Source of the DNA: Bacteroidales bacterium
GTDB taxonomy: Bacteria; Bacteroidota; Bacteroidia; Bacteroidales; DTU049
Length of the DNA stretch: 44,182 nucleotides
Assembly (NCBI GenBank): GCA_026418905.1
Contig: JAOAAK010000002.1
Coordinates: 1 to 44,182, forward strand
Direction: 5' to 3'
Below the pieces are notes generated by a model. That model did not search any database. It saw only the letters and a program-made list of their open reading frames with translations, and was not told the DNA's origin. The position numbers and the translations under genes were made by a program. Below, in pieces: positions 190 to 43,979 of the stretch. The stretch's first letter is position 1. Every line of letters starts with the position of its first letter.

Positions 190-197
190 TAAATTTG
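190..197 (+). promoter_or_regulatory. Bacteroidota -7 box upstream of uvrC
   Basis: TAAATTTG matches TAnnTTTG. Only seven nt (TAAAAAA) separate it from the uvrC ATG at 205, so the mRNA would have a leader of about 3 nt. No clear -33 TTG is visible; that region is occupied by the terminator stem. Confidence 0.6.
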
Positions 198-204
198 TAA
201 AAAA

Positions 205-2025
205 ATGCCCAGGGAGGATGTCTTAAAACAAATCGAATTGCTGCCACTCAAACCTGGGGTATACCAGTTCTTTGATGAAAAGGGAAACTTGCTTTATATA
301 GGAAAAGCTCAAAATTTACGAAAAAGAGTAGCAAGTTATTTTCAAAAAGAACCCTCCTCCATCAAACTTAAATTACTTGTTAGTAAAATTAACCGTATCG
401 AATTTATCGTTGTATCATCATCTATAGATGCACTCATTCTCGAAAACAATCTTATTAAGAAGCATCAACCTAAATACAACGTATTGCTTCGTGACGATAA
501 AACTTACCCTTGGATAATCATTACTGATGAGGAGTATCCTAGAATTATTAAGACAAGAGATAAAACTTATCGCAATGCAGAATACTTTGGTCCATACCCA
601 TCTGGTCGCATGATGCATTCTATCTTAAACGTATTCGAAAGACTTTTTTACTTTCGGACATGCCAATTGAAATTAAATGAAAAAGATATTCAAAAAGGAA
701 AATTCAAACCCTGTATATCATTTCAATTGAAAAGATGCTTGGCTCCTTGCATAGGCTTACAAAGCCATGAAGATTATTTACACATGGTTCAACAGGCAAA
801 AAAAATTTTACGAGGAAATATCAAGCCGGTGCTTCAAGAAATCGAACAACAAATGAAGTCTTTTGCTGAGCGCTGGGAATTTGAAAAAGCTCAAGAGATG
901 AAAGAAAAATGGCAATTGCTTAAAGAATATCAGGCCAAATCTGTAGTTTCTTTTCCACATCTTGGTAATGTAGATGTTTTTAGTATGATACGTGATGGTG
1001 AATATGCATATGTCAATTTTTTTCGAATTGTTGAAGGCAATGTGGTGTACGGTCAATCAATCGAACTTAAATCTCGTCTTGAGGAAACAAATGAAGAACT
1101 TCTTTTATTAGCTATAGGTAATTTTTGGGCCATGATGGGAGAAAACCCAACTGAAGTCATCGTTCCCTTTCCTATTCACGCTAAAATGGATCATATCAAA
1201 TTTGTAGTTCCTAAGAAGGGTGAAAAACTTGAATTGCTTAAACTTTCCCTTAAAAATGCCACAGAGTTTAAAGAAAGACAACAGAAACAACTATTACAAA
1301 TAAACCCCGAAACATACATCGATAATTTACTTCTCAAAGTACAATCAGAATTAAATCTTTCTCAAAAACCTGTTCATATTGAATGTTTTGATATTTCAAA
1401 TTTTCAAGGAGAAGAAGCAGTTGCAGCTTGCGTTGTTTTTAAAAACGGAAAACCATCAAAATCCGAGTATAGAATTTTCCATATTAAAACTGTGACGGGT
1501 GCTAATGATTTTGCTATGGTGAAAGAATCAGTGTTTAGACGATATAAACGTTTGGTTGAGGAAAAAAAAGAGCTGCCACAATTGGTGATCATCGATGGTG
1601 GTAAGGGACAACTATCTGCTGCTCACGAAGCTATTCAAGCACTTAAATTGCAGGATCAAATCCATCTTATTGGTATTGCAAAAAAACTAGAAGAAATATT
1701 TAAGACTAATGATCCTCTTCCACTATTTCTGAATAAAAAAAGTGAGGTGCTAAAATTCATCCAGAGAATCCGTGATGAAGCCCATCGGTTTGCTTTAAAA
1801 AATCACAGAAAATACAGATCTCAACAAGTGCTTTCCTCGCAATTAAAAAGCCTTCCTGGCATTGGGGAAAAAACCGTTCAAAAACTTTTTAAATTTTTTG
1901 GTTCCTTAGAAAACATGGCAAAAGCTGATCGTTTTACTTTTATCCGACATTTTGGAGCTAATCGCGGATCGCGCATTTATGTAAATATAAAAAAAATCTT
2001 GCCAACTTTGATTAATGAAAAATAA
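205..2025 (+). CDS. uvrC: Excinuclease ABC subunit C
   Basis: UvrC makes both incisions flanking a lesion in nucleotide excision repair, with UvrA and UvrB. The 606 residues show the full architecture: an N-terminal GIY-YIG nuclease (PGVY at 17-20, YIG at 31-33, probable catalytic Glu80), four conserved cysteines (153, 170, 178, 182), a UVR motif at about 210-242, the RNase H-like 5' nuclease (Asp396 in ECFDISNF, Asp464 in IIDGGKG, His527 in DEAHRFA), and C-terminal helix-hairpin-helix repeats (LPGIGEKTVQKL) from about residue 548. The start at 205 is the only methionine that keeps the GIY-YIG domain whole, and it lies 7 nt after a -7 box. The 3' end overlaps the next gene by 11 bp, so the two are probably co-transcribed. 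Confidence 0.97.
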   Translation: MPREDVLKQIELLPLKPGVYQFFDEKGNLLYIGKAQNLRKRVASYFQKEPSSIKLKLLVSKINRIEFIVVSSSIDALILENNLIKKHQPKYNVLLRDDKTYPWIIITDEEYPRIIKTRDKTYRNAEYFGPYPSGRMMHSILNVFERLFYFRTCQLKLNEKDIQKGKFKPCISFQLKRCLAPCIGLQSHEDYLHMVQQAKKILRGNIKPVLQEIEQQMKSFAERWEFEKAQEMKEKWQLLKEYQAKSVVSFPHLGNVDVFSMIRDGEYAYVNFFRIVEGNVVYGQSIELKSRLEETNEELLLLAIGNFWAMMGENPTEVIVPFPIHAKMDHIKFVVPKKGEKLELLKLSLKNATEFKERQQKQLLQINPETYIDNLLLKVQSELNLSQKPVHIECFDISNFQGEEAVAACVVFKNGKPSKSEYRIFHIKTVTGANDFAMVKESVFRRYKRLVEEKKELPQLVIIDGGKGQLSAAHEAIQALKLQDQIHLIGIAKKLEEIFKTNDPLPLFLNKKSEVLKFIQRIRDEAHRFALKNHRKYRSQQVLSSQLKSLPGIGEKTVQKLFKFFGSLENMAKADRFTFIRHFGANRGSRIYVNIKKILPTLINEK

Positions 2026-7289: not shown

Positions 7290-7297
7290 TATTTTTG
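7290..7297 (+). promoter_or_regulatory. -7 box for the POT transporter gene
   Basis: TATTTTTG matches TAnnTTTG and lies 19 nt before ATG 7317, giving a leader of about 15 nt. It begins 13 nt after the preceding stop codon. Confidence 0.55.
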
Positions 7298-10411: not shown

Positions 10412-10472
10412 AACAACTATTTTATTTTTAGAAAGATAAGCCAAGTATACTGTTGAAAAAATCATAGTTGTT
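10412..10472 (+). promoter_or_regulatory. Spaced inverted repeat upstream of moeA
   Basis: AACAACTAT (10412-10420) and ATAGTTGTT (10464-10472) are perfect 9-bp inverted copies with 43 nt between them. The right copy ends at the first base of the moeA -7 box. It could be a regulator-binding pair controlling the molybdenum-cofactor operon. It does not look like a ModE site. It may also be chance in AT-rich DNA. Confidence 0.35.
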
Positions 10473-10479
10473 ATTTTTG
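10472..10479 (+). promoter_or_regulatory. -7 box of the molybdenum-cofactor operon
   Basis: TATTTTTG matches TAnnTTTG, with a possible -33 TTG at 10453-10455. Seven nt (TAAAAAA) separate it from the moeA ATG at 10487, the same spacing and same spacer sequence as at uvrC. Confidence 0.6.
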
Positions 10480-10486
10480 TAAAAAA

Positions 10487-11659
10487 ATGTATTCTTTAGA
10501 AGAAGCAATCTCACTAATTTACTCTCTTCCAATTCAAGTCGAGAAAGAAAAACTTCATTTTTTACATACTCTTCACAGAATTTTAGCCCAGGATATTCTC
10601 GCTGATAGGGACATGCCACCCTTTGATAAATCGGCTGTGGATGGATATGCATGCCGCAAAGAAGATATCCACCAACCTTTAAAAGTTATAGAAATCGTAG
10701 CAGCTGGGCAAAAGCCAAAGCAGGAAGTAGTAAAAGGTACATGTATTAAAATCATGACAGGTGCCCCTATCCCCCGCGGTGCAGACACGGTTTTGATGAA
10801 AGAGCACGTGGAAGAAAAAGATGGCTGGATTACTGCCAAAATTTTATCTTCAGCATCCAACATTGCTTTTCAAGGAGAAGATATGCGTGAAAATGAAATA
10901 ATCATTAAGAAAGGAACTTTTATCCGTCCACAACACATAGGAATTTTTGCTTCGACAGGCCATACAACGGTAGAAGTATATAAGCAAATTAAAGTCGGTA
11001 TTGTAACCACAGGCGATGAAATCGTGGAACCTTCATTTACACCTGAAACTTTTCAAATTCGCAACACAAATGCATATACGTTAATGGCTCTTATTGAGGA
11101 AGCAGGCGCTATTCCACATTATTATGGAATAGTTCCTGATCAAACCTCGATACTTTTTCAAATAATTCAGAAAGCTAGTGACGAGAATGAACTTGTTCTT
11201 GTTACTGGCGGGGTTTCGGAAGGAGATTTTGATTTTGTTCCGCAGATTATGAAAGAATTAGGATACCAAATCTTGTTTGATTCTCTATCCGTGCAACCCG
11301 GTCGGCCAACGACTCTTGCACGAAAAGAAAACAAGTATATTTTCGGCTTAGCCGGCAATCCTGTCAGTACTTTCGTGCAATTTCATTTGCTCGTAAAACT
11401 TCTTATTTGGCGAATAATGGGTTGGGAAGAAAAACCAAAAACATATAAAATTCGCATGGGTTCATCTATTAATCGAAAGAAAGCAGAAAGAACTTCATTT
11501 TACCCCATTCGAATCAATGTAAATGGAGAAGCTGAACCTATTCGATACAATGGGTCAGGACATTTTTATGCTTTCGCAGAAGCTGATGGATTGGTAGTTA
11601 TAGATAAGGGTCTGAAAGAAATAAGTAAAGGAAATGAAGCTACTTTACGACTCATATAA
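10487..11659 (+). CDS. moeA: Molybdopterin molybdotransferase MoeA
   Basis: MoeA inserts molybdate into adenylated molybdopterin, the last step of basic molybdenum cofactor assembly. The 390 residues align along the whole family: N-terminal MYSLEEAISLI, the DMPPFDKSAVDGYA motif at about 42-55, IMTGAPIPRGADTV, and the MogA-like catalytic domain with GIVTTGDEI, VTGGVSEGDFD and the late motif LAGNPVSTFV. The C-terminal domain IV ends SGHFYAFAEADGLVVI. Length is normal. It heads a four-gene operon; moaA begins inside its last 26 bp. No moaD, moaE, mobA or molybdate transporter gene lies in the window, so the rest of the pathway must be elsewhere. Confidence 0.96.
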   Translation: MYSLEEAISLIYSLPIQVEKEKLHFLHTLHRILAQDILADRDMPPFDKSAVDGYACRKEDIHQPLKVIEIVAAGQKPKQEVVKGTCIKIMTGAPIPRGADTVLMKEHVEEKDGWITAKILSSASNIAFQGEDMRENEIIIKKGTFIRPQHIGIFASTGHTTVEVYKQIKVGIVTTGDEIVEPSFTPETFQIRNTNAYTLMALIEEAGAIPHYYGIVPDQTSILFQIIQKASDENELVLVTGGVSEGDFDFVPQIMKELGYQILFDSLSVQPGRPTTLARKENKYIFGLAGNPVSTFVQFHLLVKLLIWRIMGWEEKPKTYKIRMGSSINRKKAERTSFYPIRINVNGEAEPIRYNGSGHFYAFAEADGLVVIDKGLKEISKGNEATLRLI

Positions 11660-12443
11660 ACGGAGAATTACTTATTTACGTGTGTCCGTAACTGATCGAT
11701 GCAATCTGAGGTGTACGTATTGCATGCCTGAAAATGGTATTAAACTTTTGTCACATCAAGATATTTTAAGCTTTGAAGAAATCACAAGAGTAATTAAATA
11801 CGCTACCGAGCATGGTGTTTATAAAATTCGAATTACTGGGGGTGAACCTCTCGTAAGAAAAAACATCGTAAACTTGGTGGCTATGATAGCAGAAATTCCT
11901 GGTATTCAAGATCTTTCTATGACCACCAACGGACAATGGTTAGCTCAATATGCCTATGATTTGAAAAAAGCAGGTCTTCACCGTATCAATGTAAGTCTTG
12001 ATACCCTTGATCCCGAAAAATTTAAACAAATCACACGTGGTGGCATTCTCCAGAATACACTTGATGGTATCTTTAAGGCCCTCGAAGTAGGATTTTATCC
12101 CATTAAACTTAATTGCGTGATTGAAAATTCTACCGATGAAGATGATGCAAAACTAGTAAAACAATTTGCCGAAAAGCATGGCTTTGAAATTCGTTTTATC
12201 CAAAAAATGAATTTGGAAAAAGGGATCTTTTCTCACGTAATTGGTGGAGAAGGAGGTAAATGCCATACTTGCCATAGACTGAGACTTTCAGCTAAAGGGG
12301 ATCTTGTTCCGTGCCTTTTTAGCGACCTCGAATACAACATCCGTGAATGGGGAATTGAAAAAGCTTTTGAACTTGCCCTTAAAAATAAGCCCTGTTGTGG
12401 TCATAAAGCAATAAAGCATTCTTTCTATAGCATAGGAGGTTAA
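11634..12443 (+). CDS. moaA: GTP 3',8-cyclase MoaA, short form
   Basis: MoaA is the radical SAM enzyme that, followed by MoaC, converts GTP to cyclic pyranopterin monophosphate. The N-terminal cluster motif is intact (Cys23, Cys27, Cys30 in TDRCNLRCTYC), followed by ITGGEPLVR. The C-terminal cluster motif is also intact (Cys210, Cys213, Cys227 in CHTCHRLRLSAKGDLVPC), with the GTP-contacting Arg215 and Arg217 and the C-terminal Gly-Gly tail (SIGG) needed for catalysis. The protein has only 269 residues against about 325-340 in the family. The loss is in the linker between RFIQKMNL and the second cluster: about 18 residues instead of about 65. All named catalytic elements remain, so I infer it is active. 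It overlaps moeA by 26 bp. Confidence 0.92.
   Translation: MKLLYDSYKRRITYLRVSVTDRCNLRCTYCMPENGIKLLSHQDILSFEEITRVIKYATEHGVYKIRITGGEPLVRKNIVNLVAMIAEIPGIQDLSMTTNGQWLAQYAYDLKKAGLHRINVSLDTLDPEKFKQITRGGILQNTLDGIFKALEVGFYPIKLNCVIENSTDEDDAKLVKQFAEKHGFEIRFIQKMNLEKGIFSHVIGGEGGKCHTCHRLRLSAKGDLVPCLFSDLEYNIREWGIEKAFELALKNKPCCGHKAIKHSFYSIGG
12434..12439 (+). promoter_or_regulatory. Shine-Dalgarno site of moaC inside the last codons of moaA
   Basis: AGGAGG lies 7 nt before ATG 12447. The same bases encode the Ile-Gly-Gly end of MoaA (ATA GGA GGT TAA), so the functional Gly-Gly tail of one protein is also the ribosome binding site of the next. Confidence 0.7.
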
Positions 12444-13837: not shown

Positions 13838-14505
13838 ACTATAACTTTCTTTTTGAATTGAAACAAAACCATACCTAAAACATAGTACATAAGAACAATA
13901 ATGGCAATGCTTTTATAGTTCAAGATTACCGCAAAACTTGAACCTATGATGACGAGTGTAATAAATAAAAATTTACTTGTAATTGCTTTCATCTTTAGGT
14001 TTTCGAGATGCACGGGGACTATCATTGCCCAAGATATGAGAAATTGAAAAATTAAAAGCCACTGCTTCGAAAACACATCCGACCAAAATAACAAAGATGA
14101 AAAAACAAAAATAGCTGCTGCAGGAGAAGGCAATCCCACGAAATAATCATACGAATTTTTTTGCGTGTTAAATTTAGCAAGTCTAAAAGCCGCCATGATC
14201 ACATATAACCCTCCCACTACTAATTGATCATGTAAAAAAAACACATCTTTGAAGTAAAACACGATCATAAAGCCTGGTAAAAGACCAAATGAAACAACAT
14301 CTGCCAGACTATCTAATTCTTTTCCAAATAAAGATTCTGCCTTCAAAATCCTAGCAAAAAAACCATCAAGAAAATCGCAGAAAACACCAACAAGGAGAAA
14401 ATACCAAGCTGTTTCCCATTGCAACATGTGTAAAAAATATAACCCCAAAACGCCTGCTACGAGATTTCCTGTAGTAAAAGCATGTGGAATCAAATATTTG
14501 AGCAT
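13834..14505 (-). CDS. pssA: CDP-diacylglycerol-serine O-phosphatidyltransferase
   Basis: It makes phosphatidylserine from CDP-diacylglycerol and serine in the inner membrane, the first step towards phosphatidylethanolamine. The CDP-alcohol phosphotransferase motif is complete: Asp47-Gly48, Ala51-Arg52, Gly61, Asp65 and Asp69. About seven hydrophobic segments follow or surround it. I choose ATG 14505 (223 residues, starting MLKYLIPHAFTTGNLVAG) over the upstream ATG at 14526, because a -7 box at 14513-14520 lies between them and family members start close to the 'P..T..N' segment. The phosphatidylserine subtype fits the N-terminus and phylum; a phosphatidylglycerol-phosphate synthase is less likely. 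Confidence 0.9.
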   Translation of the reverse strand: MLKYLIPHAFTTGNLVAGVLGLYFLHMLQWETAWYFLLVGVFCDFLDGFFARILKAESLFGKELDSLADVVSFGLLPGFMIVFYFKDVFFLHDQLVVGGLYVIMAAFRLAKFNTQKNSYDYFVGLPSPAAAIFVFSSLLFWSDVFSKQWLLIFQFLISWAMIVPVHLENLKMKAITSKFLFITLVIIGSSFAVILNYKSIAIIVLMYYVLGMVLFQFKKKVIV

Positions 14506-14512
14506 TTTTCTA

Positions 14513-14520
14513 CAAATGTA
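14513..14520 (-). promoter_or_regulatory. -7 box of pssA
   Basis: Read on the minus strand the sequence is TACATTTG, matching TAnnTTTG, and only 7 nt (TAGAAAA) precede ATG 14505. This rules against the start at 14526. Confidence 0.6.
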
Positions 14521-14536
14521 AATCAAATAAATTGAT

Positions 14537-14544
14537 TATCTTTG
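14537..14544 (+). promoter_or_regulatory. -7 box of the glycine-rich protein gene
   Basis: TATCTTTG matches TAnnTTTG and lies 22 nt before ATG 14567. It is divergent from the pssA promoter, with 16 nt between the two boxes. Confidence 0.55.
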
Positions 14545-14566
14545 TATTAAGAAAAATTGTATCCTT

Positions 14567-16361: not shown

Positions 16362-16369
16362 TATCTTTG
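16362..16369 (+). promoter_or_regulatory. -7 box of the DUF4831 gene
   Basis: TATCTTTG with a possible -33 TTG at 16344-16346 (15 nt spacing, shorter than usual). Eight nt (CAAAAAAA) separate it from ATG 16378. Confidence 0.55.
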
Positions 16370-16377
16370 CAAAAAAA

Positions 16378-17547
16378 ATGCGATTGTCCGTTCTTATTTT
16401 CCTTAAACTCACTTTTCTTTTAAATGGTCAAAAAATCTATCCCTATCTTCCAAATCTTCAAAAAGCTAAAACAGGAATTATTTATGCTTTACCATATAAT
16501 ACGATTAACCTAACCATTGAAGTGAAACAAACTATTTTGGAAGAAGGTCTATTTTCCAATCAAGCCTCAAAATTTTTTTCATTTCATGATGATTTTCTCA
16601 AATCCTTACATGGCTCGATTTATGAATTAAAATCCATCCAATATTCTATTCATGTGGAACCAGATTTTAAAAGATCCTTTCTATTCGTTCCACCTGGACG
16701 AAAAGAACTTACGACGTATACTTCTCACTTTTTACTACTCGCTATCAATGATGAACCTGTCAACTTGATTGAACCTTCTCATCAATTTCATATAAGTTTC
16801 AATTTAAACCATTCATCTTCCACATCTTATTTCCCAATTTTTAACAATTCTTATTGGCGAACCGATACCATCAAAGAAAAAACCTTTGTCGACAGCGTGA
16901 TAATTGAAAACATCAAGGTAATTACAAAACTAACCGAGAAAACTTTTGAAGAAAAGGGAAAAGAAATTGCAGATGCATTAAATAAAATTTGGCAGAACAA
17001 AATTGAACTAAACTCTGGCACCAATGAGGTTGGTTACGAAGTCTCGACATTGAGATATATGAATCATCAACTCGATTCTATCATACAGCTCTACAACAGT
17101 TTATTTATGGGGAAAAAAGAAGAGAAAATTCACTCCTATTCGCTAACCATACATCCCATACAAAATGATACGATTTACCTTTTTTCAATTAATGAAAAGA
17201 AAGGATTGATCGTAGATTCAAATTATGCAAAAAAGTATTATGCTGTTTTCCAAATGACCGACAATCTTACACACCCTTACGATGTGACTAAACCTTCTCA
17301 AAAATTGCCAGGTATTCCTTACGTCATTCCAGCTACTGTCCGATTTTCAATTCTAGAAGAAGATAAAGAATTATTTAGCAATCATATTCTTGTTGCTCAA
17401 TTAGGCAGCGTTGCCTTTTTGCCTTATCGAACCAAAAAAGTTCAATTTCACCCTTTATATGGATATCCGATTAAGATATCTGTTGGAGCAAAAGTTGAAT
17501 CTTCCACAAGCCTTCCTCCAGTTCACTATGGGGACGGGCAAAATTAA
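16378..17547 (+). CDS. DUF4831 family exported protein
   Basis: The 389 residues begin with a short signal peptide (MRLSVLIFLKLTFLLNGQ). The segment GIIYALPYNTINLTIEVKQT, followed by a Phe-rich stretch (FSNQASKFF), matches the N-terminal pattern of DUF4831, a Bacteroidota family of exported proteins with no assigned role. A mid-protein region (EKTFEEKGKEIADALNKIWQ) is helical, and the C-terminus (LPGIPYVIPATVRFSILEED) is beta-rich. The gene has its own near-leaderless promoter. Its last 77 bp overlap the 3' end of the convergent aminotransferase gene, the longest such overlap in the window. Confidence 0.7.
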   Translation: MRLSVLIFLKLTFLLNGQKIYPYLPNLQKAKTGIIYALPYNTINLTIEVKQTILEEGLFSNQASKFFSFHDDFLKSLHGSIYELKSIQYSIHVEPDFKRSFLFVPPGRKELTTYTSHFLLLAINDEPVNLIEPSHQFHISFNLNHSSSTSYFPIFNNSYWRTDTIKEKTFVDSVIIENIKVITKLTEKTFEEKGKEIADALNKIWQNKIELNSGTNEVGYEVSTLRYMNHQLDSIIQLYNSLFMGKKEEKIHSYSLTIHPIQNDTIYLFSINEKKGLIVDSNYAKKYYAVFQMTDNLTHPYDVTKPSQKLPGIPYVIPATVRFSILEEDKELFSNHILVAQLGSVAFLPYRTKKVQFHPLYGYPIKISVGAKVESSTSLPPVHYGDGQN

Positions 17548-21443: not shown

Positions 21444-21451
21444 TATTTTTG
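21444..21451 (+). promoter_or_regulatory. -7 box of the atp operon
   Basis: TATTTTTG matches TAnnTTTG and lies 20 nt before ATG 21472, giving a leader of about 16 nt. Confidence 0.55.
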
Positions 21452-27295: not shown

Positions 27296-27433
27296 TTACT
27301 TATTACTTTCTTCTTGCTGGAATGAATATAATTTTTGTAGTGCAATTTTATTTTTTTTCTTTCTGGGACGTGTTTTACCGTATGTTCCTCTATGAATTTT
27401 GCCTCTCTTAGTTCGAATATCTCCTTTTCCCAT
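27296..27433 (-). CDS. 30S ribosomal protein bTHX
   Basis: A 45-residue, very basic protein beginning [20 protein letters not shown], followed by RPRKKKN. This is the conserved core of the small-subunit protein THX (bTHX), known from Thermus and widespread in Bacteroidota, where it sits among 16S rRNA helices at the top of the 30S head. I translated it from the sequence directly; its small size makes it easy to miss. The last 15 residues ([16 protein letters not shown]) extend past the conserved core. A -7 box lies 10 nt upstream. The methyltransferase gene follows after 17 nt. Confidence 0.9.
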
Positions 27434-27443
27434 TTTTTTTTTG

Positions 27444-27451
27444 CAAAATTA
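27444..27451 (-). promoter_or_regulatory. -7 box of the bTHX gene
   Basis: Minus-strand TAATTTTG matches TAnnTTTG. The 10-nt spacer to ATG 27433 is C followed by nine A residues. Confidence 0.6.
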
Positions 27452-27462
27452 TGATTTTTTTC

Positions 27463-30989
<3,527 letters not shown>

Positions 30990-35300: not shown

Positions 35301-35952
35301 CTGGACCCTTAATAAAAGCTACATTATCAACATATGCAGACTCAACCAAATTAGGATTTACTTTAACGGTTTTTTTGATTAATTCAAATAAAGTAAACAA
35401 TTTTTCTTTGCCGTCAATAATGAATTTTCCATTGAAAATCTTATGTCTACAATGTTCTGAATTGATTTGAGCATAACCGAAAACCTCTGCATCTGTTAAA
35501 GGTCTTTCAATCTTTGATGAGACACGTTTTAAATACTGAATATCGTCGTCAGTTAATGCAAGTCCATGCTTATCATTAAATGAAACTATATCTTCCACAT
35601 ATTCAAAATATTCATTACTTTTCTGTTCAACAGAAAAAATATACTGATCCAACACGTCATATCTTTCTTCCAACATAGGATCGAAGCTATCATCATATGG
35701 ACGAAACATTTCTATTCTTCGAACCTGTTTGATGCCAATAGATTCCAGAATACTTAGAACATTACTACACCAGGGAGAAATCATGTTTTTATGAGGTCCT
35801 AGAAAATTTCCAACAATGTTCTCAGATGTAATACGAATTATTTTATCACTTCCTAATAACCATTTTAATTTATACGCTTCTTCCTGATCTAGAGTAACTA
35901 AAGAATCTACAGCAATTACACAATTGTTTTGATGAATATAGAAAAAAATCAT
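32302..35952 (-). CDS. purL: Phosphoribosylformylglycinamidine synthase (single-chain)
   Basis: PurL converts FGAR to FGAM with glutamine and ATP in purine synthesis. From ATG 35952 the protein has 1216 residues, the long form with synthase and glutaminase on one chain. Visible: the signature SEHCRHKIFNGKF, VENQKIILSLKAETHNFPT, GTGGEIRDR, the structural repeat of the synthase half, and a C-terminal amidotransferase with Cys1065 (LGVCNGCQLM), AHGEGKF and MPHLERSIFPWQW. The frame is open upstream to 35991, but a -7 box at 35961-35968 lies inside that extension and the family starts near MIFFY, so 35952 is chosen. Two unrelated genes follow within 4 nt and with ATGA overlap. Confidence 0.96.
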   Translation of the reverse strand: MIFFYIHQNNCVIAVDSLVTLDQEEAYKLKWLLGSDKIIRITSENIVGNFLGPHKNMISPWCSNVLSILESIGIKQVRRIEMFRPYDDSFDPMLEERYDVLDQYIFSVEQKSNEYFEYVEDIVSFNDKHGLALTDDDIQYLKRVSSKIERPLTDAEVFGYAQINSEHCRHKIFNGKFIIDGKEKLFTLFELIKKTVKVNPNLVESAYVDNVAFIKGPEIKIFRPLKGDYPSPYVVENQKIILSLKAETHNFPTTVEPFYGASTGTGGEIRDRMAGGQGSIPLAGTAVYMTSLPSWHKRKKFRFPYHLPESILIKASNGASDFANKFGQPLIAGSLYVFDHEENGERIAYDKVIMLAGGVGYALKVKSKKRIPEAGEKVILLGGDNYRIGIGGGSVSSVETGKYHSSIELSAVQRANPEIQKRVFNVIRAIAEDEHNKSITSIHDHGAGGHLNCFVELLEQKGGIIHVDKLPKGDVTLTDVELLVNESQERMGLIIEEKSIDLCQTIARRERAPFYIVGEVNNTHKITFLHDDGSKPFDLKIKYLLENPPKTVIFDQKTEKNFAEPFFVVDNISEYLEKVIQHEAVACKDWLTNKVDRSVTGKVAVQPTCGPLQLPLNNVGVVALDYESYTGIATAIGHASVAGLIDASAGSRLSVMEALTNIVWAPLKHGLEGISLSANWAWPARQKGEDARLYEAVEALSNFCIELGINVPTGKDSLSMTQKYSDGTIVKAPGTVIVTAMAEVSDIRKTITPVLLPFEDSNLIYVDFSLSPFELGGSVFYQTLNSIGKKCPDVLNSAYVKRVFESIQELILYEKILAGHDVSAGGLITALMEMCFSQNEMGLLVNFSDFDESNLVKILFSEKPAIVIQVTEPKKVINFLMAKRVKFHVLGHVIPQYQLKIVHHEETYLFDLEAWRKKWLYPSYRLDQKQTQTQLAMSRFEMIGKQELKYHFPVNFTGEKPNLTFITRKPRVAVIREEGTNGDREMAYSIYAAGMEVIDVHMTDLIEGREDLKNVQMIVFPGGFSYADVLGSATGWSAGFLFNPRAKESLTRFYERKDTLSLGVCNGCQLMVKLGIFEILDQIHVRMEQNDSGKFESAFVLVDIHPSPSIILKPMENSKLGIWIAHGEGKFIFENPREKLHIPMTYAYDQYPGNPNGSMYQAAAICSSDGRHLAMMPHLERSIFPWQWPYYPDKIGHNITPWFLAFEAARKWLSQT

Positions 35953-35960
35953 TTTTTTTG

Positions 35961-35968
35961 CAAACTTA
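35961..35968 (-). promoter_or_regulatory. -7 box of purL
   Basis: Minus-strand TAAGTTTG matches TAnnTTTG; 8 nt (CAAAAAAA) precede ATG 35952, the same spacer as at the DUF4831 gene. Confidence 0.6.
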
Positions 35969-37075: not shown

Positions 37076-37083
37076 CAAAGTTA
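37076..37083 (-). promoter_or_regulatory. -7 box of the LVIVD gene
   Basis: Minus-strand TAACTTTG matches TAnnTTTG and lies 20 nt before ATG 37055. Confidence 0.55.
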
Positions 37084-39786: not shown

Positions 39787-39794
39787 TATTTTTG
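39787..39794 (+). promoter_or_regulatory. -7 box of the YdcF-like gene
   Basis: TATTTTTG matches TAnnTTTG and lies 19 nt before ATG 39814, starting 5 nt after the preceding stop. Confidence 0.5.
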
Positions 39795-39813: not shown

Positions 39814-40584
39814 ATGTTCTTTTATCTAAGTAAGATTCTTTCTTTTTTGACCACACCTGTAGCTTGGATTTTTTTAATCCTTTTAATGGCTATTATAACC
39901 AGAGACAAAAAAAAGAAAAAAAATCGCCTTATCACTGCTTTTTTGTTTTTCCTTTTTTTCAGTAATCTTTTTGTGGCCCGAACTGTTATGAGGCTATGGG
40001 AACCACGTCCAATTCCTATTTCTTCTCTATACAAGCAATACGACGTAGGTGTTGTTCTGGCTGGTGGTATGGCATTTCTTGGAGAGGAAAATCAAGCCGT
40101 TTTTAAAAATAACCCTGATCGCATCATACAAACTATCATACTGTATAATAAAGGTGTAATAAAAAAAATTTTACTTAGTGGAGGTGATGCCACTATACTT
40201 CATGATAATTCACAAAACGAAGCCACACTTTTGAAACAATTTCTTTTGCAATTGGGTATTCCGGAAAAAGATATTTTAGTTGATAGTCTTTCACGTAATA
40301 CATATGAAAATGCTGCCAATTCCTCCCGTATCATAAAAAATTCTTTTCCATCTGACGTTCAGGTTCTTTTGATTACTTCAGCTTCGCATATGTACAGAAG
40401 TTTTGCATGTTTTTACAAGCAAGACATCATTCCCGATATATTTCCAGTTGACCATCATGCTCTTTCTAAAGATTACGACCTCGTCTCTATTATTCTTCCC
40501 AATTCTAAAGCTTTTCAGATCTGGGATGAACTTTTTCATGAATGGTTTGGTCTTGCTATCTACTATATCATAGGATACATCTGA
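39814..40584 (+). CDS. YdcF/ElyC family (DUF218) membrane protein
   Basis: The 256 residues have two N-terminal transmembrane helices separated by a basic loop (DKKKKKNR), then a DUF218 domain: VGVVLAGGMAF, ILLSGGDAT, IPEKDILVDSLSRNTYENA and LLITSASHMYRS. ElyC of E. coli has this layout and acts in envelope integrity and peptidoglycan/lipid carrier balance; the biochemical reaction is not settled. One nt separates it from the next gene. Confidence 0.88.
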   Translation: MFFYLSKILSFLTTPVAWIFLILLMAIITRDKKKKKNRLITAFLFFLFFSNLFVARTVMRLWEPRPIPISSLYKQYDVGVVLAGGMAFLGEENQAVFKNNPDRIIQTIILYNKGVIKKILLSGGDATILHDNSQNEATLLKQFLLQLGIPEKDILVDSLSRNTYENAANSSRIIKNSFPSDVQVLLITSASHMYRSFACFYKQDIIPDIFPVDHHALSKDYDLVSIILPNSKAFQIWDELFHEWFGLAIYYIIGYI

Positions 40585-43606: not shown

Positions 43607-43967
43607 GGAGAGAGGTTTTATAAGCTGGATTCTGTACTCTTTCGAGTTCCTGTCATCTATCTGAACCTGAAATTGCTTTCAGGTTTTTGCGGCCTACCCT
43701 CCGACATCGGGCGGGCAACCCTTCAACGCCGGTATACTTGGCCTTGCACCCCATGAGGTTTACCCCATAGCCTGTCACCAGGCTCATGCGTGAGCTCTTA
43801 CCTCACGTTTTCACCCTTACCCTGCCATGCGACAGGGCGGTAAAGTTTCTGTGGCACTTTCTGTAGCTCTTTTCGAGCTCCTTCCTGTTAGGAAGCATGG
43901 TGCCCTTTGGTGTCCAGACTTTCCTCCTCAACCCATTATGGTCGAGGCGACAGGAAAACCTCCCTCC
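43607..43967 (-). ncRNA. rnpB: RNase P RNA (bacterial type A)
   Basis: The RNA removes 5' leaders from tRNA precursors. On the minus strand the universally conserved CR-I segment GAGGAAAGTCTGGACA is at 43911-43926, and the 3' partner ACAGAATCCAGCTTAT is at 43620-43635. The termini GGAGGGAGGTTTT (from 43967) and AAAACCTCTCTCC (to 43607) form a 13-bp P1 helix with one G-U pair, which defines both ends and a length of about 361 nt. Within P4, the usual C-G pair is U-A, changed on both strands. A -7 box sits 5 nt before the 5' end, and TATTTTT follows the 3' end. Confidence 0.95.
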
Positions 43968-43971
43968 TTTA

Positions 43972-43979
43972 CAAAATTA
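43972..43979 (-). promoter_or_regulatory. -7 box of rnpB
   Basis: Minus-strand TAATTTTG matches TAnnTTTG. The P1 helix places the RNA 5' end at 43967, five nt after the last G of the box, which calibrates the other promoters in the window. Confidence 0.7.

Follow-up and report, generated by a model that had tools for sequence, protein, structure and literature searches.

Bacteroidota translate their mRNAs without Shine-Dalgarno sequences, and how their ribosomes find the start codon is still being worked out. The window analysed here, a stretch of 44,182 nucleotides of Bacteroidales DNA with 35% GC, raises this question in a sharp form: several of its genes have a promoter box of the type TAnnTTTG only a few nucleotides before the start codon, mostly separated from it by a run of A. 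Where would transcripts from such promoters begin, and what does the A-run do?

Close and distant boxes in the window

An earlier note on this DNA had listed seven TAnnTTTG boxes ending 3-10 nt before a start codon. Recomputation finds all seven at the gaps named there, the gap being the number of nucleotides between box and start codon. Three of these promoters lie on the forward strand: uvrC (190..204; box TAAATTTG at 190-197, spacer TAAAAAA at 198-204, ATG at 205, gap 7), moeA (10472..10486; box TATTTTTG, spacer TAAAAAA, ATG at 10487, gap 7) and the DUF4831 gene (16362..16377; box TATCTTTG, spacer CAAAAAAA, ATG at 16378, gap 8). The other four lie on the reverse strand. The pssA-like CDP-alcohol phosphatidyltransferase gene (14506..14520) has box TACATTTG at 14520-14513, spacer TAGAAAA and ATG at 14505, gap 7, while purL (35953..35968) has box TAAGTTTG at 35968-35961, spacer CAAAAAAA and ATG at 35952, gap 8. 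Because its box contains a G, purL is absent from the counts of the strict pattern TAHHTTTG given below. A gene at 27296-27433, which we take to be bTHX following the earlier note, is preceded by box TAATTTTG at 27451-27444 and spacer CAAAAAAAAA (27434..27451, gap 10). In the family 2 glycosyltransferase gene (28570..28580), box TATCTTTG at 28580-28573 is followed by the spacer AAC, without A-tract, and by ATG at 28569, gap 3. The seven spacers are thus TAAAAAA and CAAAAAAA twice each and TAGAAAA, CAAAAAAAAA and AAC once each. This bears out the description of six of them as T or C plus a run of A; the runs are mostly pure, that of pssA being broken by a G. These seven are exactly the window starts with a box at gap 3-10 (7/36), and 200 dinucleotide shuffles gave a mean of 0.28 such boxes with a maximum of 2. 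Upstream of moeA, whose co-directional neighbour is 365 nt away, the 300 nt searched hold no other strict box. The neighbour of pssA is divergent, and the sequence searched upstream, up to 300 nt, holds no strict box besides the close one.

A second group of boxes, described earlier as having gaps of 17-22 nt, was likewise recovered in full. It comprises the boxes of the POT transporter gene (7290..7297, forward strand, gap 19 to ATG 7317), of atpB (21444..21451, forward, gap 20 to ATG 21472), of what is presumably pyrG (28607..28614, forward, gap 17 to ATG 28632), of the LVIVD-repeat gene (37076..37083, reverse, gap 20 to ATG 37055), of the gene starting at 39814 (39787..39794, forward, gap 19), which the earlier note took to be YdcF, and of a presumably glycine-rich gene (14537..14544, forward, gap 22 to ATG 14567). 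The start of the last is uncertain, the gene caller preferring ATG 14579. The three names just marked as presumed follow the earlier note; domain searches back uvrC, moeA, pssA (CDP-alcohol phosphatidyltransferase), DUF4831, purL, the glycosyltransferase, LVIVD, atpB and POT. The pssA and glycine-rich genes form a divergent pair (14506-14566) with -7 boxes at 14513-14520 and 14537-14544. As these boxes are only 16 nt apart, the upstream promoter regions of the two genes overlap.

One RNA of the window serves to calibrate the distance from box to transcription start. The rnpB promoter (43967..43979, reverse strand) consists of a box at 43979-43972 and a 5-nt spacer, and the Rfam class A match to RNase P RNA places the 5' end at 43966. 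The box ends at 43972, so 5 nt lie in between, in agreement with the earlier note. A separate observation concerns a Shine-Dalgarno-like AGGAGG at 12434-12439, 7 nt upstream of ATG 12447; Bacteroidota mRNAs normally have no such sequence, and it is therefore unusual here.

Box spacing across the genome and its relatives

The genome of the window amounts to 2.11 Mb in 47 contigs, of which about 36% was read. In 766,375 bases (the window and further stretches) 627 genes were called; 614 with 60 nt upstream were kept and 13 dropped. Gene starts are computational, picked by coding score and start codon only. The genome-wide distance count against shuffled sequence, proposed in the earlier note as a check, gave TAnnTTTG at gap 3-10 before 44 of the 614 starts versus 4.8 in dinucleotide shuffles (maximum 12 in 100), and at gap 11-24 before 106 versus 8.8. 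The strict box TAHHTTTG occurs within 60 nt of 163/614 starts (9 at gap 5 or less, 28 at 6-9, 41 at 10-16 and 85 at 17-52), a set that misses leaders longer than about 48 nt and degenerate boxes and whose shares are not directly comparable with published percentages. From gap 3 to gap 17, the single gaps hold 5, 1, 2, 3, 18, 3, 4, 1, 2, 5, 10, 7, 7, 9 and 14 genes. The distribution peaks sharply at 7 nt (18 genes, against 3 at gap 6 and 3 at gap 8), dips at 10-11 and forms a broad peak at 12-23. Gap 7 accounts for 11/354 genes in the first 440 kb and for 6/257 in a second, separate stretch, where gap 6 has none and gap 8 one. Among 103 starts agreeing within 6 residues with a relative's homologue, gap 6 has 2, gap 7 has 4, gaps 8-10 none and gaps 11-22 have 21. 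At internal ATG codons, 39 boxes precede 2345 ATGs, none at gap 7. The box itself is enriched upstream of genes, with 99 versus 13 in reversed upstream regions for 354 genes and 166 versus 22 for all 614. From these peaks and controls it follows that the spacing is bimodal, as the earlier note had suspected, and that the close class is real. A loose whole-genome pattern (gap 7, free spacer) was too noisy, with 77 matches here versus 39 in the control and no clear excess by eye in most genomes; another count, 619 versus 328 in the control, includes coding noise and is not used as a rate.

All 28 genes at gap 6-9 start with ATG, as do seven of the eight at gap 3-5, the remaining one having GTG; ATG dominates the distant classes as well. 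Ten close-box genes outside the window were tested for domains, one without a Pfam match. The other nine, matching thioredoxin, LepA, D-Ala-D-Ala ligase, AhpC/TSA, an Mrp/NUBPL type ATPase, thymidylate synthase, seryl-tRNA synthetase, a SIS-domain protein and Tgt, look like housekeeping genes.

For comparison between genomes we used a strict whole-genome pattern, TAHHTTTGYAAAAAAATG, composed of TAHHTTTG, Y, AAAAAA and ATG, with the reversed pattern as control. The genome of the window has 15 matches and no reversed ones. Among 295 other sampled genomes of the phylum, 8 share 9 matches, none with more than 2, against 4 reversed ones; among 59 other genomes of the order, 14 share 27, none with more than 5. 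Within the family, 6 genomes of the very AT-rich genus g201 hold 34 matches, 4 of g200 hold 6 and 1 of g199 holds none. Of the 15 own matches, seven fall inside the stretches sampled, each of them at a called gene start; at loci of the relatives within the family, found with a slightly looser pattern, 23 of 27 open a frame of at least 94 residues and 4 do not. By these pattern counts, the exact layout is concentrated in a small lineage, and elsewhere in the phylum the near-leaderless A-run layout looks rare. It recurs in one sister genus, so it is lineage-specific.

Single promoters are less constant. The layout precedes one SIS-domain gene at gap 8 in this genome and at gap 7 in five genomes of sister genus g201, with 69-71% protein identity, these five loci having been selected because they carry the pattern. 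Among the own gap 6-9 genes with an orthologue in a relative at 35% identity or more (five compared), the gap of 6-9 is kept in none. For uvrC, a comparable close box was found in 1 of 29 related loci (L051-L079; genome G354, gap 8, counted from sequence), none of nine named uvrC loci (L001-L009) has a close box at the gap expected here, and in four genomes of genus g200 the boxes are farther out. The case for a conserved uvrC promoter is accordingly weak. The layout recurs and the gaps of orthologues are not kept, so single promoters seem to turn over.

Stretches of four further genomes were read for box spacing, among them G154, of the same class (34% GC), and G356, of genus g201 (28% GC in the stretches read). 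Boxed starts at gaps of 5 or less, 6-9, 10-16 and 17 or more number 6, 2, 0 and 50 in G154, 4, 0, 11 and 25 in G354, 5, 3, 14 and 48 in G357, and 3, 7, 9 and 39 in G356. The few close boxes of G154, G354 and G357 have mainly gap 3-6 and no A-runs. Those of G356 are spread over gap 3-10, several with A-runs; seven genes are at gap 6-9, yet over the 222 kb read not one is at exactly gap 7. By one way of counting, boxes at gap 9 or less make up a share just moderately larger here (37/163) than in G154 (8/58), G356 (10/58), G357 (8/70) and G354 (4/40). What sets this genome apart is the 7-nt optimum with its A-run more than the total close share. As a side observation, the G154 stretches (L140-L159) have 0/58 boxed starts at gap 10-16, which looks like an avoidance of leaders of about 5-12 nt.

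The A-run, leader length and start of transcription

The A-tract spacers pointed out earlier are real and non-random, and their presence depends on the gap. A run of at least five A within spacer positions 1-7 occurs in 0/8 promoters at gap 3-5, 19/28 at 6-9 and 13/25 at 10-14, then in 7/47 at 15-19, 1/22 at 20-24 and 2/29 at 25-45 (10/98 for 15-45). Runs of at least four are found in 22/28 promoters at gap 6-9, which, with the start site proposed below, would put a homopolymer at +1. For runs of at least five over all distances, gap 6-14 differs from gap 15 or more by 32/53 versus 12/101 (Fisher p 6.8e-10), and without the gap 6-9 class, in which the run touches the ATG, by 13/25 versus 12/101 (p 4.3e-5). 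The same comparison gives 9/15 versus 9/40 in G356 (p=0.021) and 5/10 versus 5/55 in G357 (p=0.005), where the five all have gap 10-14 and gap 6-9 has 0/3; it is not significant in G354 (1/5 versus 3/31, p=0.47; Spearman -0.39, p=0.019), and G154 has no trend (0/2 versus 2/50). Across whole genomes, sites with a box followed by YAAAA at gap 9-14 and at gap 18-23 number 51:12 in the genome of the window and 557:710 in the 59 other genomes of the order. Within the family this ratio is 2.4-4.8 in g199 and g200 and 0.7-1.2 in the AT-rich g201, which speaks against a family-wide rule. Another genome of the order, G352, far exceeds the rest of the order sample in such sites before ATG, with 88 at gap 9-14 and 138 at gap 18-23.

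The position of the run is equally informative. Runs of at least four at gap 10-14, pooled from this genome, G356, G357 and G354, start at spacer position 2 in 19/33 cases and end 4-8 nt before the ATG in 28/33, and hence take their position from the box rather than from the start codon. With A at positions 2-7 past the box, part of the run precedes the expected start. A plain Kozak-like preference at the ATG is thereby ruled out for gap 10-14, and starts without a box have a run of at least five A in their last 7 nt in just 26/414 cases. At gap 15 or more the A peak tracks the ATG instead, at about -10 to -14. Ribosomes of F. johnsoniae favour A at -3, -6 and -12/-13, a distal A-rich motif being known (PMC6847099). 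Leaders of about 12 nt or longer have room for the distal A motif and here they tend to include it; leaders of 1-10 nt are too short for it, and it is these that tend to carry the A-run on the start site. The A-run of near-leaderless promoters looks selected.

From these data we infer the exact start site, leaderless translation and the role of the A-run. The promoters would be of the housekeeping sigma-A type of Bacteroidota (TAHHTTTG -7 element), placed very close to the coding sequence. In F. johnsoniae, transcription starts lie 4 or 5 nt downstream of the box (PMC6847099); at rnpB the spacing is 5 nt (one RNA), and in promoters at gap 15-45 A+G has a weak maximum (62-67%) at spacer positions 5-8. 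Given 4-5 nt from box to start, gap 7 implies a leader of 2-3 nt and gaps 6-9 leaders of 1-5 nt. The near-leaderless placement claimed in the earlier note, with leaders of about 0-6 nt, is thus supported, gap 7 implying 2-3 nt and not 0; a gap of 3 would put +1 inside the ATG. We therefore regard these as probably sigma-A promoters with predicted transcripts beginning about 1-5 nt before the AUG, inside the A-run. The start would fall at about the 5th-6th nucleotide past the box, 2-3 nt before the AUG for the commonest gap of 7, the mRNA would begin 5'-AA(A)-AUG, and translation would follow a leaderless or near-leaderless route. The A-run is best read as an A-rich mini-leader with flexible start choice: it would give the transcript its initial purine and a 5' end free of structure, and place at -3 the A that Bacteroidota ribosomes favour. 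A preference for A at -3 leaves unexplained, however, why spacer positions 2-4, ahead of the expected start, are A too. Also weighing against the promoter reading are the gaps not kept in orthologues, the scarcity of comparable uvrC boxes, the merely moderate excess in close boxes overall and the empty gap 7 in G356.

That portion of the run would be better explained by a start nearer the box or by reiterative initiation, in which RNA polymerase, slipping on an A-tract at +1, adds A residues absent from the template, so that a short 5' poly(A) leader makes up for the A-rich ribosome contact (-11 to -14) that the encoded leader is too short to include. Non-templated 5' A would account for the fixed position of the run at the start site in short leaders. 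Its tie to short leaders, with the same trend in G356 and G357, its anchoring on the box at gap 10-14, the shift of the A peak to the known motif near the ATG at gap 15 or more (PMC6847099) and the lack of runs at gap 3-5, where the AUG is near +1, all point this way, and there is precedent in S. agalactiae, whose additions include two leaderless transcripts (PMC4448216). On the other hand, 23/33 of the pooled runs end at spacer 6-7, leaving 1-3 templated A from the expected start, which speaks against long slippage; G354 and G154 lack the difference, and in g201 the genome-wide contrast is near 1. The gap dependence raises slippage above bare speculation, and we consider it possible, if improbable. 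Formulated for this family, the proposal would be that encoded leaders of about 1-10 nt carry a start-site A-tract on which polymerase stutter adds non-templated 5' poly(A) in place of the A-rich ribosome-binding motif; in this form it is slightly more doubtful still.

The A-run could also be a promoter (discriminator) element only, aiding melting or start-site choice without a role in translation. It does begin directly past the box and is enriched at positions 2-7, but promoters at gap 20-45 largely lack it (3/51). This excludes a general promoter element and makes the discriminator explanation unlikely. Close boxes might, further, be unused and their genes transcribed from promoters upstream. 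With weak and short gene calls ignored, 11 of the 28 gap 6-9 genes follow a co-directional gene, most less than 100 nt away, as this explanation would have it, and 2 lie at a stretch edge; yet 15 are divergent from their neighbour, 13 of them with no strict box besides the close one in the searched upstream sequence of at most 300 nt, and the sharp 7-nt spacing would still call for explanation. We hold unused boxes to be very unlikely. Boxes and A-runs are AT-rich, as is the window, but chance arising from AT-richness is ruled out by four controls: shuffles, reversed upstream regions, internal ATGs and reversed patterns all fail to yield the pattern. Moreover, the stretches of G154 and G356 have no gap-7 peak at comparable or lower GC, and an artefact of start calling is countered by the choice of starts on coding score and start codon alone. 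Chance or artefact together retain only a minute probability.

Under the preferred reading of sigma-A promoters with A-rich mini-leaders, three leader classes are legible from sequence: an AUG near +1 without A-run, a short leader with the A-run on the start site, and a longer leader with A at about -10 to -14. This amounts to a testable rule for the trade-off between leader length and A-rich sequence, and provides a concrete promoter set for a slippage search. If slippage were true, bacteria would have a genome-wide equivalent of the poly(A) leaders of poxviruses, and start-site slippage would be connected with Shine-Dalgarno-free translation.

Comparison with known systems

Searches of open-licence papers turned up no report of A-tract near-leaderless promoters in Bacteroidota and none on slippage in this phylum. 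Reiterative initiation is known from S. agalactiae and from vaccinia late promoters with 5' poly(A) leaders, which share with the present promoters an A-run at the start site, here the predicted one (PMC4448216, PMC12722222). Non-templated additions are documented there, in S. agalactiae at up to 15% of start sites with 67% of them A (PMC4448216), whereas at the promoters described here they would be a prediction. TA-led leaderless genes of Actinobacteria and Deinococcus-Thermus likewise have a box of the -10 type, about 12 bp ahead of the start codon, but their sigma consensus differs; that survey, whose reference box is of the E. coli type, detected such genes in just 1/37 Bacteroidetes/Chlorobi genomes (PMC3160421).

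Also close are the sigma-ABfr promoters of Bacteroidota (TTTG or TAnnTTTG), which have the same -7 element and whose expected start, 4-5 nt downstream, is predicted here too (PMC6847099, PMC9723704). Their usual leaders are longer, with a median of 24 nt in F. psychrophilum and 23 nt as the commonest length in B. thetaiotaomicron. Leaderless mRNAs of Bacteroidota are already documented as a minority: 5.5% in F. psychrophilum, about 3.7% with less than 10 nt in B. thetaiotaomicron and 13% with at most 10 nt in F. johnsoniae. Their start codon lies at or near the 5' end, as is predicted here. In the genome of the window, however, the optimum would be 2-3 nt of A before the AUG (gap 7), whereas the close boxes of G154, G354 and G357 keep mainly to gaps of 3-6.
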